Shown here piece by piece: positions 14,024-33,003 of a DNA stretch of 43,570 bases (its first letter is position 1; every line of letters starts with the position of its first letter). The stretch is from a virus. A program made the position numbers and the translations under genes. The stretch is taken from positions 1 through 43,570 of the IMG/VR virus record IMGVR_UViG_3300025168_000172; one strand, 5' to 3'. The notes below the pieces were generated by a model that had not been told where the DNA came from, ran no database searches, and was given only the letters and a program-made list of their open reading frames with translations.

Positions 14024-14226
14024 TTATTAAATATGATAAAAATAACAACCCTAAATTAGTCCCTGAAACTAAAATAGTGCATAATGATGCATGGCGTAAA
14101 GCTATGGCAATAGAGTTTAGAAAGAAATATGGTGCATGGTGGATATTTCAAGGAGTTCCGTTAAAAAATAGTAAAAAAACATGGATTGAACAATTCAGAA
14201 AGAAGGTTATACTACATGATCAGTAA
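14020..14226 (+). CDS. Hypothetical early protein (68 aa)
   Basis: The start at 14020 (ATGA overlap with the previous stop, GAGG upstream) is preferred over an in-frame ATG at 13999. The product begins MIIKYDKNNNPKLVPETKIV and is basic and Trp-rich (RKKYGAWWIFQGVPL, then KKTWIEQFRKK). No domain recognised. It overlaps the next gene by 11 bases. Confidence 0.55.
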   Translation: MIIKYDKNNNPKLVPETKIVHNDAWRKAMAIEFRKKYGAWWIFQGVPLKNSKKTWIEQFRKKVILHDQ

Positions 14227-14728
14227 TAATGATTACATACTAAATGAAGTCAAAAATAGTATATACATGAGTGGTGAACAGCTAGAAGCAGATAATGTAT
14301 TAACATGGAATGAAATAGGTTCTTATGTAAGTACAATGCTAATAGATGTAGAAAAACGATTAGAAGTCGGTGCAAAGAAGTATGGAGAACAAGTTCCTAT
14401 ATTTAAAGCAGATAACTTAGATAGAAATAATTTAAGTGAAGCAATAGAAGAAATACAAGATTGTCTTGTTTATTGTACTGCTTTAAAAATACAAACAGCC
14501 GAATTAAGAAGTTTTAATGATAAAACACCAAAACAAGTTGGAGTATCATTAAAAAAAATGAAAGAACACAAAGAAAAGATACAGAAGAATTATGTTAATG
14601 AGTATTCTCTTAACATAGCAAGTGCGATAACTTACTTACAGCATTCTTATTTCTTATTAAAGAAAGCAGAATCGATAAAAGATCATATTAATATTAATAA
14701 TACAAATCCTAAGGAGGATACAACATGA
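14216..14728 (+). CDS. MazG-like / all-alpha NTP pyrophosphohydrolase-like protein
   Basis: This is a 170-residue helical protein, with the start at 14216 chosen for the AGAAGG site upstream. Residues about 48-90 read RLEVGAKKYGEQVPIF, then LSEAIEEIQDCLVYCTALKI. The 'GakKYGe' segment followed by 'EaiEEi.D.lvY..al' resembles the metal-binding helices (EExxD) of MazG-like or dATP/dGTP pyrophosphohydrolase-like phage proteins that clean or remodel nucleotide pools. The C-terminal 80 residues are helical and unassigned. It is directly upstream of and coupled to the ubiquitin-like gene (ATGA overlap). Confidence 0.4.
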   Translation: MISNNDYILNEVKNSIYMSGEQLEADNVLTWNEIGSYVSTMLIDVEKRLEVGAKKYGEQVPIFKADNLDRNNLSEAIEEIQDCLVYCTALKIQTAELRSFNDKTPKQVGVSLKKMKEHKEKIQKNYVNEYSLNIASAITYLQHSYFLLKKAESIKDHININNTNPKEDTT

Positions 14729-14952
14729 GTGATTCAACTCTAACCATTAGATTGATGTGGAATACTTCTGCGTTTGCAGATACAGCATTACCATCTAATG
14801 TTACTACTATAGGACATCTTAAAGATCATTTAGGTAATGTCCCAGCTAATGCATCAGTTAATTATAACGGTGTAGTAGCAACAGACGACAGTAAAGTCTT
14901 AGAAGACGGTGCTGCACTTGCTATTGTAGCAAGAGATAAAACTGGTGGATAA
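14725..14952 (+). CDS. Ubiquitin-like beta-grasp protein with C-terminal Gly-Gly
   Basis: This is a 75-residue protein matching the size of ubiquitin or ThiS/MoaD. The order of elements fits a beta-grasp fold: an N-terminal strand pair (STLTIRLMWNTS...), a short helix (IGHLKDHLG), then strands SVNYNGVV and KVLEDGAALAIVARD, ending exactly in KTGG. The 'yNG......vLeDGd.l.iv' pattern is typical of ThiS-like and bacterial ubiquitin-like proteins, and the bare di-glycine end is the form that E1 enzymes adenylate. An unusually strong ribosome site (AAGGAGGA, 7 bases upstream) implies high expression. The three genes that follow encode E2-, JAB- and E1-like proteins, which supports a modifier role. 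Fold and role are inferred; the terminal GG and context are seen directly. Confidence 0.75.
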   Translation: MSDSTLTIRLMWNTSAFADTALPSNVTTIGHLKDHLGNVPANASVNYNGVVATDDSKVLEDGAALAIVARDKTGG

Positions 14953-14968
14953 TCAGTTAACTTAAACC

Positions 14969-15061
14969 ATGAAGGGTAACAACAAATCTCTACATTATTC
15001 ACAAGTAATAATAGATAGCTCACTGTAGATCGATAGTTACCCTTCATATCTCAATGAAGGG
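14969..15061 (+). promoter_or_regulatory. Three-segment RNA switch in front of the E2-like gene
   Basis: Segment 1, ATGAAGGGTAAC (14969-14980), is perfectly complementary over 12 bp to segment 2, GTTACCCTTCAT (15036-15047). Segment 3, ATGAAGGG (15054-15061), repeats the start of segment 1 and pairs perfectly over 8 bp with segment 2 across a 6-base loop. Segment 3 contains the AGGG ribosome site for the ATG at 15068. So 1-2 pairing exposes the ribosome site and 2-3 pairing hides it. The 55-base interior of the 1-2 hairpin could be sensed by a ligand, protein or ribosome. The ubiquitin-like gene ends 16 bases before segment 1. Confidence 0.6.
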
Positions 15062-15067
15062 AAGATA

Positions 15068-16849
15068 ATGAAAATAGAAATAGAAAATAGAGAACCTAAT
15101 TACAAAGAAGTAGCAGACACAATACGATTAGGACCTCAAAAAGAAATACTTGACGACTTAGATATAATCAACAATAGGTGGATGGTTACTAATTGGTCTT
15201 ATGGCAATAGATCAGAATTACAACCATTAGAACCATTGCATGTTACTAAAACATTTAGATGGGGTGCTGGTTACAAACAAAAGATATTAGATTGTATAGA
15301 TACTAGATTTCATCAATACAATAAACCTACTAGTAGTATACAAACACTATTTAGTAGAGCTAGTAATGCTGAATGGTATAAAAAGCAATTCACAGACAAA
15401 GTATTAGATCTAGATGAAAAGCTCAAAAGATTAAGAGCTAATAACATAGGATTTGATAGCAATGAAGATGTGTTTAAAAACGCATATCAAAGTTTCTTAA
15501 AACATCTAGACACACAAAAGAATATAGCCGAAACAGTGTCTAGTAATGGTCATGTTAATGTAGAAATTGATATGTACAGAATACCTGAAGATCATATTGA
15601 TGAATTGCAAATAAGTGGTAGAAATCTAACACCAGCTGAGATAGATTGTATTAAATACGAACAAACCTATGTTTATCAAAAATACACATGGAATAAACCA
15701 GTAATGGATTTTGTTAATCGTGAAGGTAATATAGTTTATAGTCATGAATTAGAAGAACCAATACATATGACATTCTATTTTAAAGTTTCAGAAGTTATTA
15801 ACAAAATGATATTTTTAAATAATGATATCAAACAAGTAACTTCTTCAAACTTAAGTAGTACTAGTAATGTTCAAGTTAGATATCAAAATAGCCTTAGTCA
15901 CAGAACTGGAATACGAAGTTGTAGTGTATGGGGTTCAGGTGCAGGTTATGATGGTGCAATTGAAGGTAATTCTGATCCATTAAACATATCATCAAATTAC
16001 AGTAGTAGTTATACTGTAACAGCATACCCTTATATTGGAGTAAGAGAATATGTAATGCCTACTGGTGTTGGTAGATATGTTGAATACGACAAAAATCATT
16101 GGAACAATGTCTGCCATGGTGACATAACTAGTGAATTTAATACATGTTTCTTACAAATGGATGTATTTGGTGTATTGTCATTGTTTAATTCATGGAATGT
16201 TTGGCATACAACAAGATCAAATCCTTTACAAGGAATTCGTTATATGTTTCTTGAGAGAAGACCAGAAATGCAAGAAGTATGGAATCAAATAGGTTTTAGT
16301 GCTACTGATGCACATAAAAGATTATCTATTATGTATCAATGCTACTTAGGTTACTGGGATACAGATATATCATTAAAAGATAACTTTTTAAGTTTAGTTA
16401 CTATGGATTCTTTAGAAAATAAAGTAGTAGCATACTTAGAAAATGAATATCGTAATATATATGATGAAGAATATACATGTATGTGGTTAGATAAATATGA
16501 TGTCGGTGAAGTTGATTGGTATGAAGAGTTCTTAGCAGAACACCTTATCAATGCAAGACATGCAATGATGACACACTCTAGTTCACATAACTGTTTAGAA
16601 TATGCTAGTGTTACAAAAGAAGCTGATACTATGGCTTTTATAGAATGGATAAGCACAAAAGAAACACTAGATTATGTTGATGCAGATGAATTAGATGAGT
16701 TACCAGAATTTGGTGACGCACTTGAGGCATTAACTAATGAAAATACAAGAACAACTCTTGAAGCATTAGAAGATCAAGATGCAAATCAGTTAGAACGTGA
16801 AATGTCAATGTGGGTAAATGCTAATACAAGGAGGACTAATAATGGCTAA
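15068..16849 (+). CDS. Large protein with E2-like (ubiquitin-conjugating) Cys motif
   Basis: This is a 593-residue protein, family not otherwise recognised. Around residues 325-395 it reads YPYIGVREYVMPTG, then HWNNVCHGDITSEFNTCFLQ, then FGVLSLFNSWNVWH. The order of an aromatic/Pro segment, then 'N-V-C-x-G-D', then a helix ending in a Trp-containing stretch, matches bacterial E2-like enzymes, where the Cys of 'HPhv...CxG(d/n)' accepts the modifier. C349 would be the catalytic residue; C360 is an alternative. The 320-residue N-terminal part is charged and partly helical (residues 110-150), and the C-terminus is acidic (DADELDELPEFGDALEAL). Its position between the ubiquitin-like and JAB genes supports the E2 call. 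Its ribosome site lies in an RNA switch. It could instead be a substrate or E3-like protein. Confidence 0.5.
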   Translation: MKIEIENREPNYKEVADTIRLGPQKEILDDLDIINNRWMVTNWSYGNRSELQPLEPLHVTKTFRWGAGYKQKILDCIDTRFHQYNKPTSSIQTLFSRASNAEWYKKQFTDKVLDLDEKLKRLRANNIGFDSNEDVFKNAYQSFLKHLDTQKNIAETVSSNGHVNVEIDMYRIPEDHIDELQISGRNLTPAEIDCIKYEQTYVYQKYTWNKPVMDFVNREGNIVYSHELEEPIHMTFYFKVSEVINKMIFLNNDIKQVTSSNLSSTSNVQVRYQNSLSHRTGIRSCSVWGSGAGYDGAIEGNSDPLNISSNYSSSYTVTAYPYIGVREYVMPTGVGRYVEYDKNHWNNVCHGDITSEFNTCFLQMDVFGVLSLFNSWNVWHTTRSNPLQGIRYMFLERRPEMQEVWNQIGFSATDAHKRLSIMYQCYLGYWDTDISLKDNFLSLVTMDSLENKVVAYLENEYRNIYDEEYTCMWLDKYDVGEVDWYEEFLAEHLINARHAMMTHSSSHNCLEYASVTKEADTMAFIEWISTKETLDYVDADELDELPEFGDALEALTNENTRTTLEALEDQDANQLEREMSMWVNANTRRTNNG

Positions 16850-17762
16850 TTTCTACATAAGTAATAAAGACTGGAATACATTACAAAACTATGCAAGGTA
16901 TGCTTATGATGAGCATACATCAGAAATTGGTGGATTCCTAATAGCAGAACAAGATAAAGATAATAAATGGAAAATGCATAAACCAGTAATACTACAACAA
17001 GAAATAAGTGGTGGTAATACTGTATTAGATAAAGATGCATTAGCTGAATATTATGTTAAAACTGCTATGAAAATGAAAGACAAACCATTTCAATTTGTTT
17101 GGTGGCATAGTCATCATACAATGGAAGTGTTTTGGTCTGGAACAGACTTAACAGCAATAGATGAATTTAGTAATGGTTCAATGTCTATATCTTTAGTAAT
17201 TAACTTAAAACAAGAATACAAGTTAAGAGTTAATTTATGGCATCCTTATAAAATGCATGAAGATGTAGAAATGGATATTATTAATAAACCTAAAGCTAAA
17301 GTTGTCCCTAAACTTATCAGAGATACTGTTGATAAGCTGTGTGATAAACCTACTAAGTTTGTATATCCCAAAACAAATACATTATCTAGTAAAACTTATA
17401 ACCAGCTAAGTGTGTGGCAACAAAAGCCAATGGACTTAGAAATGGTTCAAGTTGAATCTAAAATAGATAATATATTAATGGACTATCTTACATCTTTAGA
17501 TTTTCAAGAATACCAAATGTCAGTTAATAAACTTAATTACGAATTAAAGAAAAATAAAAGTGAATTAAGATGTGGTTTAGTTAAAGAACAAGGACATGAA
17601 AAATTCTTGTTTGCAGCTATGGCTACATTTAACGCAGATGAATGGGTTTATAGAAAAGGATCTAAATGGTCTTTTGAAGATAAATGCATAGAATATGATA
17701 TTGAAGGTGAAGAAGATGAAATAGGATATGGAGGATACAGCAATGTTACAACAACGCTATAG
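16842..17762 (+). CDS. JAB/JAMM metalloprotease (deubiquitinase-like)
   Basis: This is a 306-residue protein. Residues 89-102 (HSHHTMEVFWSGTD) are a perfect JAMM signature H-x-H-x7-S-x2-D, and E28 in SEIGGFLI is the conserved upstream glutamate. All Zn-binding and catalytic residues are therefore present. JAMM enzymes cut after the C-terminal glycine of ubiquitin-like proteins. Since the phage modifier already ends in GG, removal from targets is more likely than maturation. Residues about 150-306 are an extension not found in minimal JAB domains, with a helical part and an acidic end (EGEEDEIGYGGYSNV). The start at 16842 has AAGGAGG upstream and overlaps the previous stop by 8 bases; an in-frame ATG at 16818 is less likely. 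Confidence 0.85.
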   Translation: MANFYISNKDWNTLQNYARYAYDEHTSEIGGFLIAEQDKDNKWKMHKPVILQQEISGGNTVLDKDALAEYYVKTAMKMKDKPFQFVWWHSHHTMEVFWSGTDLTAIDEFSNGSMSISLVINLKQEYKLRVNLWHPYKMHEDVEMDIINKPKAKVVPKLIRDTVDKLCDKPTKFVYPKTNTLSSKTYNQLSVWQQKPMDLEMVQVESKIDNILMDYLTSLDFQEYQMSVNKLNYELKKNKSELRCGLVKEQGHEKFLFAAMATFNADEWVYRKGSKWSFEDKCIEYDIEGEEDEIGYGGYSNVTTTL

Positions 17763-18384
17763 TTCAATAGTAAGTAACTTTAATGAATATACATATCATA
17801 TATTAGGTTGCGGTGCTATAGGTAGTGCCGCAGCTACTCAAATAGTTAGAATGGGTGGCAATAACTTATACTTATATGATATGGATAGAGTAAGTGAAGA
17901 AAATCTTGGTGTGTCGCAATTTAGGATTTCTGATTTAGAGCAATCTAAAACAAAAGCCTTAAGAACAATATGCCAAACAATAAGTTCAGATATAACCATT
18001 GGTTGTGTAGATGGTTTATTTGAGCATTACATACCACACGGTAATGACATTATAATCTTAGGTTTTGACTCTATGGAATCAAGACTTGATGCAGTCAAGA
18101 ATATAATGAAGCAACAAAAACCATTATATCTTATAGACGGTAGAATGGGTGCAGAACATTACCAACAGTATGTGTTTACTAATCCAACATTAGGACAATA
18201 CCTTAAAACATGGTATTCAGATAAAGATGGAAGTAGTGAACCATGTAATGCAAAAGCAACATCATATTGTAGTAATATGAGTGGTAGTTTTATAGCAAAT
18301 TCCATTAGGAAATTGATTACAGAACAACCATACAACAAGGAATTGTCGTTTCATTTTCCTACTATGATGCTAGAGACTAAGTAA
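17743..18384 (+). CDS. ThiF/E1-like activating enzyme
   Basis: This is a 213-residue protein with the Rossmann adenylation fold of E1 enzymes. Residues 22-27 (GCGAIG) are the nucleotide-binding loop, and LYLYDMDRVSEENLGVSQF (42-60) carries the acidic D46/D48 and the conserved N54. GFDSMESR (107-114) is the 'D...x.R' motif, and EPCNAKATSYCSNMSGSFIA (167-186) holds candidate catalytic C168 near the usual crossover segment. There are no CxxC pairs, so the zinc site of many ThiF proteins is absent. It would adenylate the Gly-Gly end of the 14725 protein and load it as a thioester. The start at 17743 is set by ATGGAGGAT upstream; it overlaps the JAB gene by 20 bases. Confidence 0.85.
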   Translation: MLQQRYSSIVSNFNEYTYHILGCGAIGSAAATQIVRMGGNNLYLYDMDRVSEENLGVSQFRISDLEQSKTKALRTICQTISSDITIGCVDGLFEHYIPHGNDIIILGFDSMESRLDAVKNIMKQQKPLYLIDGRMGAEHYQQYVFTNPTLGQYLKTWYSDKDGSSEPCNAKATSYCSNMSGSFIANSIRKLITEQPYNKELSFHFPTMMLETK

Positions 18385-18466: not shown

Positions 18467-19075
18467 ATGGGATTCGATGTATCAAAATATACATTTGTCA
18501 AAGATCGTTTAGTAGAATATAGAAACACCTTTGAAGGATGTTCAATAAAGACTGAATTAATATCTGTGAGTAATATCGTAGATTCAAAAACAGGTGATAT
18601 GTGTAATGAGTATGTAATACAAGCTACAATAACACCAAATCCATTACAAGAACCAGAGATTTGTTTTACTGGATTAGCAGCAGAACGAGACAATGGAACT
18701 TTCATTAACAAAACTTCAGCAATGGAAAATTGTGAAACATCAGCAGTAGGTCGTGCATTAGCATTTGCAGGATTTGGTGGTGATATGGCGTTTGCAAGTG
18801 CAGAAGAAGTAGTTAATGCACAATTAAATCAAAAAACATCAGCAGTAACAGTTGATTTGCTAGGTGTTTTAGATAGAATGTTCAATTTAGCTAAAATATA
18901 TATGCCAGAAGATCATATAAGCACACATATTAAAAGACGTGGTGCTGATTATTATGATACTAAAATAAAATGGTCTAAAGCAATGGAACATTTTATGGGT
19001 GTAATAAAAATTGAGCAAGAAATTGCACAAAAAGCCAAAAATAAACCTAAAACTGTAAAAAAGGAGAAGAAATAA
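18467..19075 (+). CDS. Single-strand annealing protein-like (ERF/Rad52 type)
   Basis: This is a 202-residue protein. Residues 84-106 contain SAMENCETSAVGRALAFAGF, the signature stretch of many phage annealing proteins ('..tSA.e.cETSAvGRALA.aG.gg'). It follows a strand-rich N-terminal half (YVIQATITPNPL) and precedes a Lys-rich C-terminal tail (KAKNKPKTVKKEKK). The protein would anneal complementary single strands during replication or repair of phage DNA. It is coupled to the next gene, an SSB-like protein. The start at 18467 has AGGAGAA upstream. Confidence 0.65.
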   Translation: MGFDVSKYTFVKDRLVEYRNTFEGCSIKTELISVSNIVDSKTGDMCNEYVIQATITPNPLQEPEICFTGLAAERDNGTFINKTSAMENCETSAVGRALAFAGFGGDMAFASAEEVVNAQLNQKTSAVTVDLLGVLDRMFNLAKIYMPEDHISTHIKRRGADYYDTKIKWSKAMEHFMGVIKIEQEIAQKAKNKPKTVKKEKK

Positions 19076-19584: not shown

Positions 19585-19847
19585 TGACAGCTAAGAAAAT
19601 AGTTCTTTATTGGATAGAAAATCAAATGAAGAACAGATCTAAAGTCTTCTATAGTTACGATTTTGAAACACAAATAGGTAATTATGGAAGACTTGCTCAT
19701 CAGAAAGTACATACGCCAAGTACATATTCTAGAGCATTTAGAACAATCCGTTCAAGTGATAATTTATCTAGAATGGGAATTAAACTAATAGAAATTAAAG
19801 ACGTGAAAGGAAAAGCAAAAGGATGGAAAATAGAGAAGCTATCGTAG
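19584..19847 (+). CDS. Small winged-helix-like protein
   Basis: This is an 87-residue protein starting at the TAATG overlap with the previous stop. It begins MTAKKIVLYWIENQMKNRSK, then has RLAHQKVHTPSTYSRAFRTI and GIKLIEIKDVKGKAKGW. The layout of helices followed by a basic pair of strands would suit a winged-helix DNA-binding domain. Its place beside helicase and SSB genes fits a DNA-associated role. Family not recognised. Confidence 0.5.
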   Translation: MTAKKIVLYWIENQMKNRSKVFYSYDFETQIGNYGRLAHQKVHTPSTYSRAFRTIRSSDNLSRMGIKLIEIKDVKGKAKGWKIEKLS

Positions 19848-21628
19848 AAATAGTAGAAGGTTCTATCAATAACAGAAATGTTACTGGTAATATAAATATC
19901 TACAATGATATGGTACAAAAAAATGCATTTAAAAAAGAAATGTATCGTTCTTATTACCATTTTGATGAATCATTTACTGAACACGTAGATAAAGAAGGAT
20001 CTGTAAAAGGATTTAACGGGTTAGTTTATTTAAATTACATACATTTAGACATTGATAAAGGTGATATAGACGACAAATCATTTAATCCCTATGTTATGAA
20101 TTGTTTATCTGAAGTATTAGATAAAGGAGTTATGGCAGAAGATATTAATATATGGTTTAGTGGTAGTGGTTATCATATTAAAATAAAGAATGTATTTGGT
20201 TTGCAACCAAGTAAAGAATTACATACAAAATTAAAATTTACATTAGAAAAACATTTTAGTTTTGGTGATTCTATATATGATAAAACAAGAATAATACGTA
20301 GTGAATGGGCTTTAAATACCAAAACAGGTTTATATAAAGTCTTTATTCCTATGAATTTATTACAGGATTATTCATATAATGATATTAAAAAGTTTGCTAA
20401 CAGTAAAACAGCATACACTAAATGGTCAAAGAAATATCCAGGTTTTTATGATAATATGTTTAAATCTGAAGATATACAATTTGATCCATACTTACAATCA
20501 ATGGTAGTTGCATCGCCAACAATAGCTGCTGTCACTAACGGTGATAGTAGAAAAGGTGATGTGTCTAATGTAGTATCGTGCATGCAACACATATTTAATG
20601 AAGGACCAATAAAAGGTTCTCGTAATATGAAATTAATGCGTATGGCAAGCTCGTACAAACGTTCTGGTGTTCCATACTTAGTAGCTTTAAACGGTTTACT
20701 AACATGGAGTGATGGAACATTACCAGAAAATGAAGTCATAAGATCTGTAAACAATACATATGAAGGAAATTATGTGTATAGTTGCAAAGATCATATTATG
20801 GCTGAGTACTGTGACCCTAAGTGTATTTACTTTAAAAATAAAGACTATGTATTAGAAATTAATAGTATTGATGCATTAGAAAAGAATCTTCGTGAATATA
20901 TAAGTGAAGATTTAACTAAACGTTCAATAGATGTAGGTGCTTTATTTAATACACATAAATATACATTTAAACCAGGTGAACTAATTGTTTTCTCTGGTGA
21001 CACAGGTATGGGTAAATCAGCATTTGTACAATACTTAGTAACAAAGGCATTGAAAGAAGTACTGTATCTATCTTTAGAAATGAAAGAAGAATTAACTTTC
21101 AGACGCTTTGGTCAAATGGCTATAGGTAAAAGTCAAGATTGGATTAATAATGAATATAAAACTAATCCAGACTTTACGCTTAAAGACGAATTAGGACACG
21201 TTAAACTAATGACTATAGCACCAAGAATAGATTCAGTAAAGAAAATCGTTGCAGAATATCAACCAAATGTATTAGTAGTAGATACTGCTGATGAAGTGCA
21301 AGTAGACTTTAATAGAGGTGAAATAGAAAAACAAAATATGGTTATTGACGGGCTAAAACAAATAGCACAGAAAAACAATATAATCATTATTGCTATATCA
21401 CATTTAAATAAAGCTAGTGCAGCTAGTAATGTAGTTGCATTGCATTCATTAAAAGGTTCATCTAATCTAGTACAAAAAGCTGACAAAGTGTTAGTTATTA
21501 AAGGTGAAAGATCAGAAAAAGTAAGACAAGTCGTATCTGAGAAATCAAGAGACGAAGATAGGTTTGAAATGACTGTATTCTTTAACACAGATGACTTTAC
21601 TTTTAAGCAATTAAATGAAAGTAGTTAA
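19823..21628 (+). CDS. Primase-helicase (AEP-type primase fused to DnaB/RecA-like ATPase)
   Basis: This is a 601-residue replication protein. The N-terminal part has features of archaeo-eukaryotic primases: IHLDIDKGD (D76-x-D78), WFSGSGYHI (113-119, motif II S-x-G-x-H) and IYDKTRIIRS (D153 with the following Arg pair). A middle region with C253, C321, C330 and C334 looks like a metal-binding primase C-terminal module. The C-terminal part has a P-loop, FSGDTGMGKSAF (390-401), SLEM (417-420) and Walker B VLVVD (483-487), as in DnaB/RecA-like helicases. It would prime and unwind DNA. No DNA polymerase follows, so the phage probably uses that of the host. It overlaps the previous gene by 25 bases. 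Confidence 0.8.
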   Translation: MENREAIVEIVEGSINNRNVTGNINIYNDMVQKNAFKKEMYRSYYHFDESFTEHVDKEGSVKGFNGLVYLNYIHLDIDKGDIDDKSFNPYVMNCLSEVLDKGVMAEDINIWFSGSGYHIKIKNVFGLQPSKELHTKLKFTLEKHFSFGDSIYDKTRIIRSEWALNTKTGLYKVFIPMNLLQDYSYNDIKKFANSKTAYTKWSKKYPGFYDNMFKSEDIQFDPYLQSMVVASPTIAAVTNGDSRKGDVSNVVSCMQHIFNEGPIKGSRNMKLMRMASSYKRSGVPYLVALNGLLTWSDGTLPENEVIRSVNNTYEGNYVYSCKDHIMAEYCDPKCIYFKNKDYVLEINSIDALEKNLREYISEDLTKRSIDVGALFNTHKYTFKPGELIVFSGDTGMGKSAFVQYLVTKALKEVLYLSLEMKEELTFRRFGQMAIGKSQDWINNEYKTNPDFTLKDELGHVKLMTIAPRIDSVKKIVAEYQPNVLVVDTADEVQVDFNRGEIEKQNMVIDGLKQIAQKNNIIIIAISHLNKASAASNVVALHSLKGSSNLVQKADKVLVIKGERSEKVRQVVSEKSRDEDRFEMTVFFNTDDFTFKQLNESS

Positions 21629-22938: not shown

Positions 22939-25900
22939 TTATTCGGTTGTTTCGCCTTCTTCAGGCTCTTTTTCAGGTTTATTCCCTAATCTACCTATAG
23001 CATGTATAGGAATACCAAACATAAACTCTCCAAACATAGGTAAAGTGTCTGCAGTTCTTAATAAATCTCTACCAACTCTACCAAACGGTAATGCTGTAGC
23101 AGCAGTATATTTCCAAAATGGTTCCCAGTCATTGTTTATTAATGCTGTCATAGGAGACAATACAAATCTACCAGCAGGTGGCGTAACAATCCCTAATGGT
23201 GCTAATAGTGGATGACCATATTGATTATAAAAAGCTCTTTCTCTTTCTTTTTGATCACCAAACATTAAGTGAGAAAAATCTACAGCCCAGTTCATAGGTG
23301 GTGATAATGCATATTCAAATATACTAGCAGCAAACACCGATCCTAAGGCTGATACCATAAGGTCTGCACTCATTTGATTTTCAAATCTTCTGTTAGCTTC
23401 AAAATCACCATATCCTTCAGTTATCATATAATCAGATATAATATTAGCTCTTCTTCTAATACTATTCCAACTATAAGGATGGAAACGTGTCATCATTCTT
23501 CCAAAAGAAGTATTACTAAATCCAGGTCTATTTGTAGCATGGTAAATAAATTGCGTAGCTTCTATTCCTTTTTGTGCATAATCTAACAGAAATTTTTCGT
23601 TAACTTCTACATTACCTCTACTGTCTGTAAATAAATCTTTAGCTTTAACATAATGTGCTATTGCAGTTTTCATACGTAAATGTCTTTCAGTTACACGCAT
23701 AAACGACGCACCATATTCAACCATTTTTTTATTAATACCAAATTCTGTACCAGCTTCAAACAAGGTAAGTTTAACTTCTTTGTCTCTTTCAGCTTTATTT
23801 TTTTTATTAACTTCTGAGTCTTTTGTATATATAGGTAATTTTTTAAATTTTCTTCCCAATATTTTACCTGCCTCATTAGAAAAAGCTTTCCAATCTGTAT
23901 CTCCTGGTGGTTTCATTTGTACTAATTCGTTTTGAATGTTAGAATCTAAAAATCCTCTTTGTTCAAAATACATATGAACGTCACCCTTAGTTTTAATAGG
24001 CTCATCTATAAATTTTCTTAATTTAGAATCATACAATTTATAAGTTTTACCTTTAAATACATCATTAACTAAGTAAGCTTCATCTAATGATTTTAAATAA
24101 TAATCAAATCCTACGTCCGTAATAAGGTTTGTAGTACCACCATAAGCATTTGCCATAGCTGATTTAGGGTGTGCTAATAAAGCCATCATCTCAAACTTAC
24201 CTTCCATGTCTGATATCCAATTTAATTTAGCTACCATAGCTTTATGCCTACTAGCTGGGTCTTTTGGTAAATCTTTAAACATTTGTATTTTATTGTTAGT
24301 TAATTTTCCTAACAACTTATTAGCTCGTTGTTCTAGTTTTAACATAACATTACCAACAGTTTCCTCACTATAAAAAGATCTAAACGATTTACGCATATGT
24401 GTTATATCTATATTTCTTTTATTAATAATATTTGTATTTATTTCTCCAGTTTCTGGATTTCTACTATATATAAAATCATCTCTGTATTCGTTAGTTTTGT
24501 TTCTTAACATACCTAATTTACTTTTAGATGTATCGTATTCTAACGTTATTTCGAAACGACCTTTACCAGATTTTTTAATAATTTGATTTTCTGCATAATC
24601 AATAAATAAAATTGAATTTCTAGGTATTAACGTTCCTTCTAAATCATAAAACTTTCCATATAAGTCGTCTCTCATTTGTTGTTTTGTTTTATTCATCATA
24701 CGCGTATGAGATGCTTTCTTTTTAGCTACAAGTTTAGCTTTATTTTTTATAGTTTTACTATTGCTTATTTTATCTAATCCTATTTTATGAGATAATTTTT
24801 TGTCTTCTACTTTATATTTTGCTAACAACTCTTTTTGCATAGATCTTTCTTCTGCTTTATTGGGTCTTGTAAACATTTTAAAATCATTTATAAGTTTTTT
24901 GTCTACAATGTCTTTGGGTGTATAGTGAATAGAATATCCAGTTTCCGCATAATCTTTTAACATATTCATATCTTTTTCAGTCACACCATACAATTCAAAA
25001 TTACGTACACTTGGCATATTCATATAACCTCTAGCTATATCTACTAACTTATGATGCCATGCTCTACCTACATCAGGGTCAATATTTTTATTACCAATTA
25101 TAGTACCATTCTTAAAGTTTCTTAAATATAATCTTATAGCCAATGATGCACGTTGATTTGTTACTCCTAATGCACCTGATTTTAAATATTTTCTATAAGC
25201 GTTTAAAGAAACATCGTATCCTTCTACTGGTATTGCAGCTTTAGATCGAGCGTTAACTGCAACCCCTCCACCTACTTTTTCTTTTTTATTACTTCTTTTA
25301 GCAAGGTTGTTAACTCTATTTTCTGCTACCTCGTCATACATTGGATTATTAAATCTTTCTGGATTGTTTAATAATTTTTCTGTCATATTATCATATAATA
25401 TTTCAGCTGCTTCTTTTTCTGTTTTAAATCCACTTTCTATTTGTTCATATAAATCTGGATTTTCTAATCTAATTTGATTTTTTTTAATACCTGTTTTAGA
25501 GTTGTATCTACCCGAAATATCTCCATTCAAATAATCTTTAATAGGTATATCTTTATATTCTGTATATATTTCTCCAGTTTTTTTATTAACTAATTCTCCA
25601 AAATATCTTAAAGCTTCTTGCGGTACATGTTCTTTTTGTATACGTTCAGCTTTTTGTTTAGTAGCGTCTTGCCCTCCTAATGGATGATATAAATTACTAA
25701 ACCTTGTACCGTCTATTTCTTGAGTACCTTGAAATCCAGTTTTCATTTCATTTATTTTATCTCTATTAGAATTTTTAACAAACTCTGTCATTTCAAACAA
25801 CAATGTTTTTTTAGTTTTTTTGTTTTTCTTTTTAGCTAAATCTTTATAATTCAAACCATAATTACCATTAGGTAGTACAGAACCATACTTGCCTTCTACT

Positions 25901-28900
25901 ATATCTAATAAATCTAATTGGTATTCAGCCCATTTCATATCATCTGTATGTAAATGTTTACGTACAGTATTTTTACCTTCATGTAAATTTTTATCCATTA
26001 AATTTATATCTTCTATAAACTTTAAACGTTCAGGTACAATAATACCGTGTTTGTTTAAAAGAGTTTCTGATAATACTTTGTTAGAAAAATGTGAATCTCC
26101 TGGGACAGGTTTTTCTTTAGGATTATAAAATTTATTAAAATCTAAAATACCTTCTTTAGCCATACCCATTTGTTTCAAACGACTCGGTGTTAACATCTTT
26201 GATATTTCTTTATAATTACTTTCATGTAAAAGTTTGTATGCTTCTGTCATACTTTCTGTTTGAATATTATCTTTGATCCATTCAACTAAATCTCTAGGCG
26301 TTGCTTCAAAGGTTCTATCTGTACCACGTTGTTTTATTTTAAATGTTACATCCTTAGGTATGTTAGCTAATTTTTTTCTAGATTCTATAACATTTTTAGT
26401 TAAATTTTCTATAGAAATTGGGTGTTCCGTAGGTCTAGGTCCTTGATTATTAGGAGCTTCATCTCCCTTTAGTCCCATTTGTCTTTCATATGAAGCTACC
26501 GCTTCAATAGTAGATTTATATTTATTATACAATTCTTTTTGTTCTGTAGTTCTAATTACATCTAACTTACCATTAAATTCTGTTTCTAACGCTTTATATA
26601 GTGCTTCACCAGCTTGATGTGCCTTACCTACGCTTTCAGCCATAAGCTCTACTGTTGCTGTAGGATATTTAATTCCTTCTTCTACAAATTTTCCATTTTT
26701 TTTAGTAGCAATAGCTTCTATTTTAAAAGCAGCTTTTTCTACTTTTTGCATAACTTTAGCTTGTTGTGAAGGAAATTGTAAATCTGTTACCCAGCTTGGA
26801 GGCATAAGTTTTTTACCAGTAATTTTTTCTATACCTTCTATTTCTTTAACATATTTTTTATGCAATGAATTTCTAGTTGCATATTCTACCCAAGTATCTG
26901 TATACATGTTTTGTAAAAAATTATTAAAAACTCTTAAATGAGTGTAATCAATTTCTGTAATACCAGACTTTGAAACTACATCTAACTGTTGAAAAGCTTT
27001 TAAATATATACTTGAAAGTTCAATTACGTTTGGAGTATTTCCATTTTTTATCATTGTGTATATAATATCTGAAAACCTGTCTAATTGTCTTTGAGCTTCA
27101 TTAGAACTCATTTTATATTTTTCTATTTGTTTATTTAAGGGCAACAAAGTTTTATCTATCTCTTTTGATATGTTATCTACCTTAGATAAAGTTTCCCATG
27201 GTATTAGATCGTTTGTAAACTTTCCAGTATTTTTTACATGATTGTCTATTAATCTACCAGGTCCATCTACATCTGTATGGTTAGTAGGTTCTGGTTCTCC
27301 TATCATTTTGTAAAATTTCTTATCTCTAGCAAGTGGTTCAACTGGATTTAACGCACCTAATACCTTTGTTTCAAATTTAGCTATATCTGTTTTAACTTTC
27401 TCAGAAATAGCAGCATTACGCATCATATTATCTGGTCCTTCAGGAGCAAATCTTCTTGCTTCGTATTCTAAAGCACTTAACTGACTACGTAATTTATTAT
27501 GTAGTCTCCTATCATCTTTACTCCAAAGATTTATATCGTTTCTAGATTTCCAATTGTTAGGTCTTGGATTTCCTTTAGTATTACCTTTGTAATATTGTTT
27601 TAAATTTGTTAATTTGTTTGATACACCTATCATCAAATTTTTTCTTTGTTCCATAAACTTCTTTTGAGCACCAGTCATGGTATTAAAATCTAACTCCATA
27701 AACGGATTAGCTTCGTGCCAATACTCAAACAATTCTACTACTCTTTTATTAATTTTTTGTTGAACTTTAGGAGGTAGTTCTCCACGTGTTCCTTGAGTAT
27801 AAATTCTTTCTAATTCTTTTTTTAACATTTCTTTGCTTGTAAAAACAACTTCTGGATAACTCATTTGATTAGCATTGTTCCTAGAATCAGATTTATATTT
27901 TTTTATAGCAGCTAAAGGTTCTCCACTGTGCATAAACTTTTGTTGTTGTGCTACATGTATAAGCTCTCTTACAAAACTATCTAATTGTTTTACATTCATT
28001 CCTAAGTAATTGTCAAACTCAGATTTAACATCTGTAATAAATTTATTAGTTTCTTGAACTGCTTTAACAACTCTAAATACATGCATTTTGTTATATAAAA
28101 AATGTGTGTTATTTTTAATTACGTCAATTTCTGACTGCGTCATTCCTCTTTCATTAAAAAATACATTGTCAAACATTTTTTCGTTTTGTATACCAAATGC
28201 TTGTGCGTAAGGATCGTTTGCTAAAAATCTATTAGCATTTCTCACTAATTGAAATACATTGTCTTTGCTATATCCATACAATGGATCTATAGTTAAGTTT
28301 AAATCTTTAGTGTAACTAGCCATTTCTTTCATGTAAGACTCTACTCCACCCTGCAATTCTAACATCTTATTAGAAACTACTTCATATGAACTTCCTTTTA
28401 AATCTTGTTTTATAGTAGCACTATGGTAGTCTTGAATAGTTTTTTCATATTTAGATATATCTATTTTGTATTTATTTTTTATTTTATCTTTAACTTTAGT
28501 CATAACAGAAAAAGCGTCATCAATACTTTTTGTTTCCATAGCATCTATATATCTATTACCAATAGACTTATTCAATCTTACAACGTCTTGGTATATTAAT
28601 CTTTTGTCTTTCATAGATATGTCATTTCTTTCACGCAATGCTAAATCTACTGCAGTTTTTATACGTGTAAACTCATTAAATATAACACCAATAGATGTTT
28701 TACCATACCTAGCTGCTCTTGCTGCTGATTGTTTTTGACCTAATAATAATATACCAAAAGGATTTTTATCTGCTAATTGCATATCAACTACATCTTTTAT
28801 AAAATTGTCATCTTTAATATCATAATTTTCAGTATTTTTAGTCATGTCTTTTGACATTTCGTATTGTACATGCTCTTGTCTAAATCCCTTTACAATATCC

Positions 28901-31900
28901 TTAGGCATCCCCCAAGACAAGTGAGCAGAGTCAATATCTTTATCAGCACCACCCATCATTTCATCGTTTTTAGCATTAGTGTACAAACTCATACCTTTCT
29001 TACTTTGTCCTCGAACAAATCCTACAAATTTTAAAGCTCTCATATCACCAGCTGTCATAACTGGAGATCGATTTATTAAACTATATTGAGAATCTAACCA
29101 GTCATTTAATTGTTCTGCTGAAAATTTATCTAAAGTAGGATGCAATCTATTATCATTGTACATCTTTCTATCTAGTATTTTAGACATAGTTTTCCACCAA
29201 GTGCCAAGTTTTATTTCTTTACCTGTTACTGGGTCTTGTATACGCATTATATCGGCAGCACCTTCTGCTAACATAAATTCGTTATCAGCTAAACCTGCTT
29301 CTGCTTCACTATATTTTTGTTTTTTTAATGAAATTTTCCAATCATAAGAACCTAATATAGTAGAATATGAATTGCTAACTTCTGGTCTAACCATACGTGT
29401 CATAGCATAATTTCTTAATGTTTTTTGTAAGAAGGCAGAACCACCTCTAGATTGCAATGCTGAAGCTTCGAATCCACTAGATGCCCAATGTTGACCAAAG
29501 TGTTTAGATGTAATTTCTTGCATAGAAGAAGTTTCTGTATCTAAAAATTGTCCATGTTTATTCTCAAAATAAAAATGTTTAGCTATATCTTTATACGCTT
29601 TTTTTCTAGTTTTTGCTGTCATAATATCATCAACTAATTTTAAACTAATTTTATCTATATCTAAACCTTTTAATGATTGATTTTTATTTCCTTTTATTCT
29701 CGATTCAACTTCTTTGTTTACTTTAGGATCACCCATAACATTGTCAAATAACAATTTGCTCCATGCTTTATGTGCTTTTCTACCAACTTCAGTATTTCTA
29801 TCAAACTGTATACCGTTCATATTTAAATACATTTGTTGCATAATGTTTAATTTGCCATTCTGATTTACTTTTTCATATACAGATGTATTCCAATGGAAAT
29901 GATCACTTTTAACTGTAAATACACCTAAATCATTTTTTAGGTCTGGATATATACCCTTTTGATCTCTTATTTTTAAAGATTTATCATAAGCGTCTCTATT
30001 TAATTCTAAAGGTCTTATATTAATATGTGATTTAGCACCACTTTCATATATCATAAACTGAAGATCGTTGTCTTTCATATATTTTGCATCTACTTCATCT
30101 GCACGAACATAAGCAAACTTACCTAAAACTAATCCTCTTTTACTGTTTGATGGAGAATTTAAAGATCCTTTAGCATTTATAGCTTTAGAACTGTCTCCCA
30201 TATATTTAATAATAATATCAAAAACTTCAGGAGATAATTTTATAGTACCATCTGTTTCAGAGTTATTATTTAAATCTTTTAATACAATACCTCTCATGTC
30301 ATTGCTTTTTAAACCTAATTTTTCACCTGGTAAAAACGGTATTTCATCTTTATCAAACAAGTTTAAATACTTTTGAGACTTAGCAGCACTACGAGGTCCG
30401 TATACTCCTCTTTCCATATTAATATATTTAGGTATTAATTTTCTAATATTAGCATAAGTAATATTTTTTTGTTCAGTTATTAAACCAAAATCTTTCATTC
30501 TATATATCATTGTAGCTACAGCATTTTCTCTTACCTTACTGTTAATATCTTTTTTATATTCAGCTGAGTTAATAAATTGTTTTGCAATAGGATCTACTTT
30601 TTCATATACAGTTTTAATTATGTTATATAAAGCAGCAACAGATTTTTTTTCTCCCGTTAATGGAATATGACCTTTTTTACCTTCAGATCCCCAAGGATAT
30701 GTTCTAACTTCTATTCTACCAGTGTCTGCTATCCCACCATATATAAATTCATTTTTTTTATTTAATTCTTTTTCAAAGTTATACCATTGTTTATCGCTTA
30801 CAGCTATCCTAGCTTTACCTTCACCTTGTGCAAAATCAACTATACGATCATTTGGTTTTACATAAACATTACCTTCACCTGTTTTTACTTCCATGTTATC
30901 TATAACTTTGACTTTCATATTATCAAAATTTTCAAAATTGTCTCTTCTCCCAGATGTTAACTTACTAATAGGATTACCTTTGGGGTCTACATTTTTTGCA
31001 GTTATCATCATACTAGGTCTTTTCATATCTTTTCTTGATAATCCTTCTCCTGGAACCATATTTATTAGATAATGATCTTTTACAGGAGAATTAAATTCAA
31101 AATTTAAAGCAACTTTTCTTATGTATCCCATTTCAGTTTCACTTAAAGTCCCTTTTTTTCCAAGTCCATATTTATCTACAAATTTTTGAACAAAAACATC
31201 TACATCTACACGTTTTTCTCCCTTTCTATCTACATACGAAGCTTCTTTTTTTGTTTTTTTATACAAAGAATTTACATCTAAATGAAAAGTTTCTTTTGAA
31301 ATCGGATTTTGCCCTTTAATAGCAGCTATTTCTTGTATTTTATTTCCTATCTCAGTTAAACTATGTACTGGAAAATCTGATTCATTACCAGTTGTTTGTT
31401 CGTTTTTAAAGTTTTTAACATTATTAAGAAGACTCAAGTCTATAAAGTCATTGGTATTATAACTTTCAATATTTCTTTTTTCATTGTAGTTAGGATCAGA
31501 AATTCTTTTATTAATACCTATTAATTCTTGTATTACAGCAACAGTACCTTCTGCGTCACTTCTTCCTTCCATAATATTTTTTATAACACTTTTATCTAAC
31601 AACCCATCTTTGTCTGCTTGTTTAATAGTTTTCAATAAAGCTTGTTGTGCTTGAGGAGTAATATTTATAACAGACTCTAGCTGTTGTTTCATTATAGAAT
31701 CTATATGATTTTCCCAATATTGTTTATATTCACTTGTTTCTTTTTGAAACCATTTTTGAGATTTTAAATTAGCAAGATTCTCTTCTTTTGTTTTAGTCAT
31801 CTCAAATATGTTTGCATGCCTATTTATATCTTTAGTAGCTCTATTCTCATATGTAGGCCTACCGTTGACAGAAAAGAATACCCCCATCAATGTCTCATAT

Positions 31901-33003
31901 ATCTGCTCTTCTACTGGTAAATCATGCAATAAGGACGTCCCTAAGCCATATCCTGCACCAGCTGTAGCTCTTACCATTGTATTTACAAATTGTGTAGCTT
32001 CCATATCATTTCTAGTAACTAAACTTTTAGCTGTTTTTCTTACTACATTTTTACCAGCTTGTACTAAAGCTGGATTAGTAGAATTAACTAACTTAGATAC
32101 GTTTGCATACTGTCCAATACTACCAAATATACCACCAGCAATAGCTCCATGCATACCAGCCATAGCCATACCTTTAATACCGTCTTCGTTTCTAGTAGCT
32201 AATGGTTGATTAGAAAAAGCCATTAACAAACCAACGTGACCAGCTTCATGTAAAATTCTAGCTACGCCCTCTTCACTAAATTTGTTACGTAATAACCCCT
32301 GTGTGATAAATGTCATACCCTTAGCTTTGTTATCACCTAGATAACTTAAACCCTGTTGTTGTATAACTTCTGCTATTTTACCAGGTATAGATTTTAACTC
32401 GTATATAGCTTTACCATTTCTAGGATCTACCATTGTTGGTTTACCACTACGTAATCCAAATACTAATTTATTGTTTTTGTCAACAAAAGATGCTGAACCT
32501 GCTAATCTTCCTACGCCTCTAGTTAATGCATCATTACTTTTCTTTAGATTTCTTGATTTATCTTTAAGTTTATTACCTAAATCTACAAGTTTTTTATTTT
32601 TTTCTAAACCACCTCTACGTATTAATGCGTTACCTACAGTCTTAGCAGCACCACCTAGCATTCTACCACCACCTAGCATAACACCAGGAGCCAATCCTAT
32701 CAAATGAGATACATTGTTAACTATTTTTTCTGTAGGAGTATCGGGTGTGTCAGCAAAACCAAAGGTAGTAAATCCCTCTAATAGACCAGAAACAGCTTGC
32801 TTTACAATACCATCCGAAGTAGATGGACTGCTTAAAGGAAGCTCCATTTCAGTTAGTTTAGTTTCTAAAAAGTCTGTAGTTTCTTTATCTAACATTCCAT
32901 CATTGCCATCATAATAAGTTTTAATTAACCTACCATAGGCATTTTGAGTTAGACGACCTTCGGCTAAACGTTTATTTAGCGTATTTATATACGGATTTAC
33001 CAT
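22939..33003 (-). CDS. Giant internal/polyvalent virion protein (3354 aa) with zincin motif
   Basis: This protein takes up nearly a quarter of the window. Near the N-terminus are hydrophobic Gly-rich segments (IGLAPGVMLGGGRMLGGAAK). LHEAGHVGLLMA then carries an HExxH zinc-protease motif at H252-H256. The long centre is charged and helical with no motif I can name. The C-terminus has RFHPYSWNSIRRRANIISDY and hydrophobic stretches (SALGSVFAASIFEYALSPP, PPAGRFVLSPMTALI). Position after the lysozyme and small ejection-type genes, and size, suggest a protein carried in the capsid and injected with DNA, like the large ejection proteins of podoviruses. An N4-type virion RNA polymerase was considered because of length, but no polymerase motifs were found. 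Confidence 0.7.
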   Translation of the reverse strand: MVNPYINTLNKRLAEGRLTQNAYGRLIKTYYDGNDGMLDKETTDFLETKLTEMELPLSSPSTSDGIVKQAVSGLLEGFTTFGFADTPDTPTEKIVNNVSHLIGLAPGVMLGGGRMLGGAAKTVGNALIRRGGLEKNKKLVDLGNKLKDKSRNLKKSNDALTRGVGRLAGSASFVDKNNKLVFGLRSGKPTMVDPRNGKAIYELKSIPGKIAEVIQQQGLSYLGDNKAKGMTFITQGLLRNKFSEEGVARILHEAGHVGLLMAFSNQPLATRNEDGIKGMAMAGMHGAIAGGIFGSIGQYANVSKLVNSTNPALVQAGKNVVRKTAKSLVTRNDMEATQFVNTMVRATAGAGYGLGTSLLHDLPVEEQIYETLMGVFFSVNGRPTYENRATKDINRHANIFEMTKTKEENLANLKSQKWFQKETSEYKQYWENHIDSIMKQQLESVINITPQAQQALLKTIKQADKDGLLDKSVIKNIMEGRSDAEGTVAVIQELIGINKRISDPNYNEKRNIESYNTNDFIDLSLLNNVKNFKNEQTTGNESDFPVHSLTEIGNKIQEIAAIKGQNPISKETFHLDVNSLYKKTKKEASYVDRKGEKRVDVDVFVQKFVDKYGLGKKGTLSETEMGYIRKVALNFEFNSPVKDHYLINMVPGEGLSRKDMKRPSMMITAKNVDPKGNPISKLTSGRRDNFENFDNMKVKVIDNMEVKTGEGNVYVKPNDRIVDFAQGEGKARIAVSDKQWYNFEKELNKKNEFIYGGIADTGRIEVRTYPWGSEGKKGHIPLTGEKKSVAALYNIIKTVYEKVDPIAKQFINSAEYKKDINSKVRENAVATMIYRMKDFGLITEQKNITYANIRKLIPKYINMERGVYGPRSAAKSQKYLNLFDKDEIPFLPGEKLGLKSNDMRGIVLKDLNNNSETDGTIKLSPEVFDIIIKYMGDSSKAINAKGSLNSPSNSKRGLVLGKFAYVRADEVDAKYMKDNDLQFMIYESGAKSHINIRPLELNRDAYDKSLKIRDQKGIYPDLKNDLGVFTVKSDHFHWNTSVYEKVNQNGKLNIMQQMYLNMNGIQFDRNTEVGRKAHKAWSKLLFDNVMGDPKVNKEVESRIKGNKNQSLKGLDIDKISLKLVDDIMTAKTRKKAYKDIAKHFYFENKHGQFLDTETSSMQEITSKHFGQHWASSGFEASALQSRGGSAFLQKTLRNYAMTRMVRPEVSNSYSTILGSYDWKISLKKQKYSEAEAGLADNEFMLAEGAADIMRIQDPVTGKEIKLGTWWKTMSKILDRKMYNDNRLHPTLDKFSAEQLNDWLDSQYSLINRSPVMTAGDMRALKFVGFVRGQSKKGMSLYTNAKNDEMMGGADKDIDSAHLSWGMPKDIVKGFRQEHVQYEMSKDMTKNTENYDIKDDNFIKDVVDMQLADKNPFGILLLGQKQSAARAARYGKTSIGVIFNEFTRIKTAVDLALRERNDISMKDKRLIYQDVVRLNKSIGNRYIDAMETKSIDDAFSVMTKVKDKIKNKYKIDISKYEKTIQDYHSATIKQDLKGSSYEVVSNKMLELQGGVESYMKEMASYTKDLNLTIDPLYGYSKDNVFQLVRNANRFLANDPYAQAFGIQNEKMFDNVFFNERGMTQSEIDVIKNNTHFLYNKMHVFRVVKAVQETNKFITDVKSEFDNYLGMNVKQLDSFVRELIHVAQQQKFMHSGEPLAAIKKYKSDSRNNANQMSYPEVVFTSKEMLKKELERIYTQGTRGELPPKVQQKINKRVVELFEYWHEANPFMELDFNTMTGAQKKFMEQRKNLMIGVSNKLTNLKQYYKGNTKGNPRPNNWKSRNDINLWSKDDRRLHNKLRSQLSALEYEARRFAPEGPDNMMRNAAISEKVKTDIAKFETKVLGALNPVEPLARDKKFYKMIGEPEPTNHTDVDGPGRLIDNHVKNTGKFTNDLIPWETLSKVDNISKEIDKTLLPLNKQIEKYKMSSNEAQRQLDRFSDIIYTMIKNGNTPNVIELSSIYLKAFQQLDVVSKSGITEIDYTHLRVFNNFLQNMYTDTWVEYATRNSLHKKYVKEIEGIEKITGKKLMPPSWVTDLQFPSQQAKVMQKVEKAAFKIEAIATKKNGKFVEEGIKYPTATVELMAESVGKAHQAGEALYKALETEFNGKLDVIRTTEQKELYNKYKSTIEAVASYERQMGLKGDEAPNNQGPRPTEHPISIENLTKNVIESRKKLANIPKDVTFKIKQRGTDRTFEATPRDLVEWIKDNIQTESMTEAYKLLHESNYKEISKMLTPSRLKQMGMAKEGILDFNKFYNPKEKPVPGDSHFSNKVLSETLLNKHGIIVPERLKFIEDINLMDKNLHEGKNTVRKHLHTDDMKWAEYQLDLLDIVEGKYGSVLPNGNYGLNYKDLAKKKNKKTKKTLLFEMTEFVKNSNRDKINEMKTGFQGTQEIDGTRFSNLYHPLGGQDATKQKAERIQKEHVPQEALRYFGELVNKKTGEIYTEYKDIPIKDYLNGDISGRYNSKTGIKKNQIRLENPDLYEQIESGFKTEKEAAEILYDNMTEKLLNNPERFNNPMYDEVAENRVNNLAKRSNKKEKVGGGVAVNARSKAAIPVEGYDVSLNAYRKYLKSGALGVTNQRASLAIRLYLRNFKNGTIIGNKNIDPDVGRAWHHKLVDIARGYMNMPSVRNFELYGVTEKDMNMLKDYAETGYSIHYTPKDIVDKKLINDFKMFTRPNKAEERSMQKELLAKYKVEDKKLSHKIGLDKISNSKTIKNKAKLVAKKKASHTRMMNKTKQQMRDDLYGKFYDLEGTLIPRNSILFIDYAENQIIKKSGKGRFEITLEYDTSKSKLGMLRNKTNEYRDDFIYSRNPETGEINTNIINKRNIDITHMRKSFRSFYSEETVGNVMLKLEQRANKLLGKLTNNKIQMFKDLPKDPASRHKAMVAKLNWISDMEGKFEMMALLAHPKSAMANAYGGTTNLITDVGFDYYLKSLDEAYLVNDVFKGKTYKLYDSKLRKFIDEPIKTKGDVHMYFEQRGFLDSNIQNELVQMKPPGDTDWKAFSNEAGKILGRKFKKLPIYTKDSEVNKKNKAERDKEVKLTLFEAGTEFGINKKMVEYGASFMRVTERHLRMKTAIAHYVKAKDLFTDSRGNVEVNEKFLLDYAQKGIEATQFIYHATNRPGFSNTSFGRMMTRFHPYSWNSIRRRANIISDYMITEGYGDFEANRRFENQMSADLMVSALGSVFAASIFEYALSPPMNWAVDFSHLMFGDQKERERAFYNQYGHPLLAPLGIVTPPAGRFVLSPMTALINNDWEPFWKYTAATALPFGRVGRDLLRTADTLPMFGEFMFGIPIHAIGRLGNKPEKEPEEGETTE

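Follow-up and report, generated by a model that had tools for sequence, protein, structure and literature searches.

Does a phage possess a ubiquitin-like conjugation pathway of its own, and on what would such a pathway act? The question is raised by four adjacent genes in IMG/VR record IMGVR_UViG_3300025168_000172, of which we analyzed the whole 43,570-nt stretch (hereafter the window, to which positions refer). An initial annotation, made from the letters of the sequence, had placed four co-directional genes at 14725-18384 and read them as a ubiquitin-like modifier (Ubl), an E2-like protein, a JAB protease and an E1-like enzyme. Four co-directional open reading frames (ORFs) do lie at 14725-18384 on the + strand, in the order Ubl - X - JAB - E1, where X denotes the candidate E2. 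With a probability of about 0.68, we consider that these genes comprise a phage Ubl conjugation and deconjugation system, which probably acts on phage replication or recombination proteins. The features on which this reading depends are as follows.

14725..14952, + strand: Ubl modifier of 75 aa, a beta-grasp protein with a flexible tail ending K72-T-G-G75
14947..14949, + strand: last codon of the Ubl, Gly75 of the terminal GG, predicted site of activation and conjugation; K-x-G-G is present in all homologues
15068..16849, + strand: X, a candidate E2-like conjugating enzyme of 593 aa whose N-terminal region is helical
16112..16114, + strand: codon of X Cys349, the predicted thioester cysteine
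16842..17762, + strand: JAB/JAMM metalloprotease of 306 aa, predicted to act in Ubl processing and deconjugation
17743..18384, + strand: ThiF/E1-like adenylyltransferase of 213 aa, with Cys168 as the catalytic residue judging from its motif

The co-occurrence of the four genes in related marine phages, proposed in the initial annotation as a check, was found to be that of a conserved unit. A scan of IMG/VR with an E1 alignment yielded 315 candidate stretches encoding a relative, from which 80 loci were fetched; dereplication and the demand for at least 4.5 kb of sequence upstream of E1 left 41 loci. The order Ubl-X-JAB-E1 was observed in 41/41 of them, with a small ORF bearing K-x-G-G upstream of X in all; in a few loci the Ubl lies 0.5-3 kb away from X, although it is still present. 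As a background, of 1226 further ORFs in these loci with lengths of 55-150 aa, 12 contained K-x-G-G. The association of the four genes is not due to chance. The X homologues are mostly about 14-25% identical to the window copy, and since the order is kept in every locus despite such divergence, gene order is under strong selection. A bacterial or prophage home for the cassette was considered and rejected, the scan of genome contigs having returned just two distant ThiF-type matches.

The arrangement of the genes is compact. The start of JAB was set at 16842, preceded by GGAGG, in preference to an upstream ATG at 16818, and that of E1 at 17743, likewise preceded by GGAGG, with an in-frame ATG at 17728 as a possible alternative. 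The strong GGAGG-type ribosome sites reported initially for the Ubl (AAGGAGGATACAACATG), JAB (CAAGGAGGACTAATAATG) and E1 (ATGGAGGATACAGCAATG) genes were recovered, while the site of X is weaker (GAAGGG). The overlap of JAB and E1, also reported initially, measures 20 nt, and two further couplings were detected: X and JAB overlap by 8 nt, and the gene upstream of the cassette overlaps the start of the Ubl by 4 nt (14725-14728). Because of these overlaps of 4, 8 and 20 nt, the run of genes looks translationally coupled, except at the gap of 115 nt between Ubl and X.

The 75-aa product had been described as a beta-grasp-like protein ending in GG, and the absence of that fold had been named as an outcome that would count against the whole proposal. 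Structure prediction and fold search yielded the expected fold: the AlphaFold model (pLDDT 81.8) displays a bb-a-bbb beta-grasp topology with a floppy C-terminus (b1 6-11, b2 18-22, a1 29-36, b3 44-47, b4 50-52, b5 64-68), and its best match in the PDB was MoaD (6jbz_B, 8.5e-4), followed by Caldiarchaeum (archaeal) ubiquitin (2e-3), Ubl domains, NEDD8 and ThiS, with MoaD alone falling under 1e-3. On the evidence of model and fold search, the Ubl is a beta-grasp protein. The Pfam ThiS profile matched the window Ubl weakly (0.022) and matched 13/40 homologues, the best at 1.9e-5. The K, G and G of the K-x-G-G end were invariant in 40/40 marine homologues. In 18/41 loci the Ubl ends exactly at GG, and in the other 23/41 between 1 and about 60 extra residues follow it, which implies a processing protease; a JAMM protease is present in every locus.

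That protease was also recognized from several sides. Although its Pfam Prok-JAB score (7e-4) stayed below the curated cut-off, the JAB model of PADLOC (2023 release), with which the four cassette proteins were scanned, matched it at 9.7e-6, and the profile of its relatives matched RPN11 in the PDB at 3.8e-5. The five active-site residues first noted by eye, E28, H89, H91, S99 and D102, which make up the E...HxHx7SxxD zinc site, are all present and conserved, and from profile and motif together the JAB identity is secure. The predicted E1 is equally secure by its matches: Pfam ThiF recognized it at 6.9e-18, ThiF-type models scored best among family models, the PADLOC E1-E2 model scored as well, and the profile of its relatives matched UBA5 in the PDB (6.7e-14) along with UBA6, MccB, ThiF, MoeB and Cap2. 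The GxGxxG and D...R motifs of the initial annotation proved to be conserved columns within a fuller set (G22xG24xxG, D46xD48, N54, K69, D109, R114 and C168), the cysteine being invariant.

The third enzyme, X, is identified by its cysteine. The cysteine of the N-V-C-x-G-D motif, noticed initially in the 593-aa protein, is Cys349, and it is invariant in 61/61 homologues; P386 (61/61) is the one other fully invariant position, followed by P321 and W376 (60/61 each). The residue before the cysteine is V/I/L in 55/61 proteins, the residue after it L/F/Y in 49/61, and the second after it G/D/S in 61/61. A proline motif lies 13-70 residues N-terminal to the cysteine, its proline being preceded by H (35/61), F (21/61) or Y (5/61), with Y/F and then mostly I after it. 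The resulting signature, HP[YF]I ... [VIL]C[LFY][GDS], gives the cysteine E2-like surroundings. E2 enzymes bear the signature HPN...IC[LF]. The signature of X also resembles the PL-N-V...[VI]C-x-G motif of PRTRC-B, the E2-like protein of the PRTRC plasmid cassette. In the X model (pLDDT 73.7, pTM 0.69), a helix is followed by strands and then by the cysteine at the start of a helix. Judged by motif and operon position, X is probably an E2, its fold being unproven. As a separate observation, the X homologues of loci L010, L018, L022 and L008 carry a clustered C...C...C-x-Y near the C-terminus, perhaps binding metal, of which the window X keeps only the last cysteine, C509 (60/61).

The matches of the Ubl and the E1 also suit a different chemistry, in which a ThiS/MoaD-like Ubl would be a sulfur carrier: the E1 would adenylate it, a donor would make the thiocarboxylate, JAB would open the tails, and X would be the acceptor or synthase, for example in nucleotide or tRNA thiolation. 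MoaD and ThiS are indeed the closest folds and hidden Markov models to the Ubl, ThiF-type models fit the E1 best, and precursor tails with a JAB are compatible with this role too. We nevertheless regard it as unlikely, as the cassette and the scanned neighbours showed no recognizable gene for a rhodanese, a cysteine desulfurase, a ThiG/MoaE-like protein or a thiolase, X is large and carries its E2-like cysteine motif in 61/61 homologues, and the gene order fits that of Ubl/E2/JAB/E1 conjugation operons.

The conjugation reading extends to cultured phages. A tblastn search of a phage collection with the E1 returned 75 records, mainly Bacteroides crAss-like and Flavobacterium phages, and the order Ubl domain - X (with the invariant cysteine) - JAB - ThiF was found in 8/8 phages inspected, which represent Crassvirales, Flavobacterium phages and unclassified gut phages (crAss001, cr85_1, cr111_1, cr128_1, frurule, DAC15, FpV4 and Dulem virus 41). 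These genes are at present labelled "thiamine biosynthesis protein", "metalloprotease" or hypothetical. In crAss001 (gp79-gp78-gp77-gp76) and Flavobacterium phage FpV4 (ALN97166-ALN97163), the cassette lies inside a replication block. The initial remark that no described phage system of this composition was known requires a qualification: we likewise found none described, but the composition also occurs, unrecognized, in crAss-like and Flavobacterium phages. The crAss-phage literature examined mentions neither ThiF nor ubiquitin, and no link of crAss-like phages or phage replication modules to Ubl conjugation was found, although subscription papers or preprints may hold one.

The Ubl domain of these phages terminates in K-(x)-SG-(A/G/T). 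The protein before X, annotated as "hypothetical" (crAss001 gp79, locus L001, 4262-4939; FpV4, locus L002, 4610-5479), combines a Ubl-like domain ending KSG(A/G) with a long C-terminal domain, and JAB may split the fused Ubl protein of crAss-like phages. The marine and crAss-like X proteins are weakly alignable overall (P about 0.008-0.02; P 0.0075 for the marine X core against crAss-like X in a profile comparison), and a full-length alignment at low stringency placed the HPYI/HSH stretch and both cysteines collinearly. Searched against a viral structure library, X matched six close relatives (E<1e-12); the next hit was an entry of 420 aa (E 0.013, prob 0.91), perhaps the FpV4 X, whose length it shares; at rank 13, non-significantly, appeared a 435-aa protein of the crAss-like phage cr128_1, with the length of the cr128_1 X. 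The E1 tree grouped the crAss-like/FpV4 E1s (95/94) with the marine E1s (100/99) at 94/89 and set the PRTRC E1s apart (98/87), with deeper placement unsure owing to long branches. Marine and crAss-like E1s also share IDGR[ML].

Several observations weigh against a conjugation system, and most of them concern X. The confidence of the model is low in its active-site loop (306-341); neither the whole protein nor core segments of it matched an E2 in Pfam, a sequence-profile search of the PDB gave no E2 match either, and a fold search of the X model against the PDB returned no similar structure and no solved E2. The hhalign comparison of X with PRTRC-B was likewise without significant match, so that none of the four routes attempted yielded a firm E2 identity. 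Profile alignments did pair Cys349 with the cysteines of the crAss-like X and of PRTRC-B, without statistical significance, and the Cys-Gly alignment of X with PRTRC-B is weak because two invariant cysteines attract each other. Beyond X, a GG end is not shared by all Ubls outside the marine clade, since the crAss-like ones mostly end KSG before Ala/Thr and continue into a long fused C-terminal domain. Additionally, all the phage E1s are devoid of the N-x-x-R-Q arginine that contacts ATP (NIGVS in the marine E1s, N[ML]SGQ-type in the crAss-like ones), which is kept in nearly all other E1s compared, including those of PRTRC, ThiF and MoeB. The IDGR arginine might replace the lost one, and the phage E1 is possibly a new E1 active-site variant. 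Finally, both the conjugation and its substrate are deduced from genes, motifs and context. As to the E2-like character claimed for the 593-aa protein, the E2-like cysteine signature and its place at the E2 position of the operon stood, while the fold did not emerge from Pfam, PDB sequence, profile-profile or fold searches.

These points bear most directly on a reading in which X is not an E2 and the E1 alone would conjugate the Ubl or modify a peptide, as MccB-like or SAMP/Urm1-like enzymes do, with X as a dedicated substrate or scaffold. The failure of the searches to find an E2 fold for X, the presence of MccB among the E1 profile matches and the unusual E1 without its RQ arginine all agree with it. 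On the other side stands the cysteine of X, absolutely conserved within E2-like flanks in a protein otherwise so divergent (about 14-25% identity), and we hold this reading to be quite unlikely.

Comparison with known systems helps to place the cassette. The PRTRC plasmid cassette corresponds to the class 6d Ubl-JAB-E1-E2 operons (Iyer, Burroughs and Aravind 2006; PMC1779556). The phage genes resemble it in their order, which in PRTRC runs Ubl (C) - F - E2-like (B) - JAB (A) - E1 (ThiF), in their separate, unfused enzymes, in the C-x-G at the E2-like cysteine, in an HSHxxxxAFFSxTD-like JAB motif and in the setting of replicon maintenance. They differ in that the phage E1s lie outside the PRTRC clade and are without NxxRQ, the phage Ubl ends KxGG whereas that of PRTRC has a single-G end, and X has roughly twice the length or more. 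The PRTRC_ThiF profile gave 22.1 bits with the phage E1 (cut-off 144.75), PRTRC A reached 14.6 bits with the cassette (cut-off 101.8), and PRTRC B and C matched none of the cassette proteins. By E1 clade and profile scores, the phage cassette is not a PRTRC member, and direct descent from PRTRC is unsupported by the E1 tree.

Bil anti-phage operons encode BilA (Ubl), BilB (E2), BilC (a DUB) and BilD (E1). Going by this description, the likeness lies in the four activities and the order Ubl-E2-JAB-E1, whereas the cassette here is carried by a phage and Bil is a host weapon against phage. CBASS type II likewise has E1 chemistry and a JAB deconjugase, and the phage E1 profile matches Cap2; however, Cap2 is an E1-E2 fusion, and the phage E1 is a single 213-aa domain separate from X. 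The cassettes of crAss001 and FpV4 agree with the marine one in the order Ubl domain - X - JAB - ThiF, the replication block, the joint E1 grouping (94/89) and IDGR, as opposed to the fused, mostly KSG-ended Ubl and the weakly alignable X in those phages. By analogy, the cassette would work like PRTRC or Bil-type Ubl conjugation. A Ubl operon of a different type, multiubiquitin - E2/UBC - ThiF - DUF6527, was encountered on a Methylocystis plasmid (locus L126, 2770-5157).

Which protein would receive the Ubl is suggested by the genes around the cassette, which bear out its initial placement inside a phage replication block by their replication and recombination functions. Besides the intergenic segment within the cassette, the features concerned are as follows.

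14186..14728, + strand: upstream coupled gene, overlapping the Ubl start by 4 nt; weak PHROG matches; its cluster is at the same place in 14/41 loci
14953..15067, + strand: intergenic segment between Ubl and X; its perfect 12-bp inverted repeat (14969-14980 / 15036-15047) precedes the ribosome site of X
18467..19075, + strand: immediate downstream gene, with a PHROG match (phrog_11717)
19823..21628, + strand: primase/DnaB-type helicase (phrog_19 9e-26; DnaB_C 1.5e-11); its cluster is downstream of the cassette in 37/41 loci

After E1, the window encodes the phrog_11717 protein, a 169-aa protein with cluster members in 26 loci, an 87-aa protein and the primase/DnaB-type helicase. The 169-aa protein had no family match, and its likeness to a single-stranded DNA-binding protein (SSB) is guessed from position and appearance. 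The slot directly after E1 varies between loci among unrelated recombination-type proteins, namely the phrog_11717 type (window, 18467-19075), ERF (3.5e-21; L075, 8773-9321) and the Sak4-like AAA_24 (6.3e-16; L006, 8694-9563), a non-orthologous swap beside a fixed cassette. The crAss-like cassette is flanked by primase and uracil-DNA glycosylase (UDG) genes, with a resolvase and an exonuclease nearby, and PRTRC operons adjoin ParB, a replication initiator or SSB. We favour a replication or recombination target because the marine cassette adjoins annealing, SSB-like and primase/helicase genes and the crAss-like one sits in a primase/UDG/exonuclease block, and because such cassettes recur beside the replication genes of mobile replicons, both PRTRC plasmids and phages.

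The intergenic segment itself merits no special claim as a regulatory RNA. The arms of its repeat are ATGAAGGGTAAC...GTTACCCTTCAT (14969-15047), a third copy, AATGAAGGG, overlaps the X ribosome site, and stems, unrelated in sequence, occur at that position in many relatives; Rfam gave no match for the segment, and the median structure z of Ubl-X gaps (-2.7) was nearly equalled by that of other intergenic gaps of the same loci (-2.1; p 0.024).

With the same chemistry, the Ubl could instead be placed on a host protein, disabling a defence or other protein, or compete with Bil or CBASS Cap2/Cap3. Bacterial Ubl systems do act in anti-phage defence, as in CBASS and Bil, and the scores of E1 and JAB with the PADLOC E1-E2 and JAB models point the same way. 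Against this, the cassette keeps a constant position in the core replication block rather than in a variable accessory region and occurs in all sampled members of a broad clade, and therefore a core function suits it better than a host-specific weapon; we judge a host target improbable.

A virion target, in which the Ubl would mark capsid or tail proteins during assembly, recalls Bil, which modifies virion proteins. It also recalls the lambdoid phages, in which a Ubl (TAPI) and a JAB (TAPK) are associated with tail assembly (PMC1779556). Yet the cassette is grouped with replication genes of early type, and the head and tail genes occupy the other strand; this target seems very unlikely to us. 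The lambda-type pair shares a phage-encoded Ubl and JAB with the cassette and differs from it in having no E1/E2, in the fusion of its JAB to NlpC/P60 and in belonging to the tail module (PMC1779556); as a model for the cassette it was rejected, being the wrong module and without E1. Elsewhere in the window, the structural gene strand encodes a lysozyme-type domain (34683-35213, - strand; phrog_7 endolysin 1.1e-13, phrog_2083 internal virion lysozyme 1.2e-11), and a 3354-aa protein (22939-33003, - strand) without Pfam or PHROG match has its cluster in 16/41 loci.

For conjugation to a replication or recombination protein, the following course can be proposed. JAB would trim the residues past the K-x-G-G of the Ubl, a step for which the window Ubl, already ending at GG, has no need but most of its relatives do. 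The E1, for which the motifs argue strongly, would adenylate the terminal glycine and take the Ubl onto Cys168, from where it would pass to Cys349 of X, whose motif and operon slot suggest, with moderate strength, an E2-like carrier. The large extra domains of X may select the target, to which X would transfer the Ubl and from which JAB could remove it; to judge from context, the likeliest target is a protein of phage replication or recombination.

Ubl-type protein tagging is known from cells and plasmids, and studies of bacterial Ubl conjugation have so far concerned host defence and plasmids. So far as the literature found shows, a full set of Ubl, E1 and JAB with an E2 candidate, owned by a phage, is new. 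Tentatively, one may see in it a phage-owned pathway, with an E1 ancestry shared by the marine phages, Flavobacterium phages and Crassvirales, that reversibly tags the phages' own replication or recombination proteins in a manner similar to the eukaryotic control of replication by ubiquitin and SUMO. X, if confirmed as an E2, would represent a new and very divergent E2 family. Since the operon occurs in phages held in culture (crAss001, DAC15 and FpV4), the idea is testable in a very abundant group of human gut phages; if true, it would place Ubl conjugation in the phage's own replication module, as an added layer of protein modification in the phage cycle.

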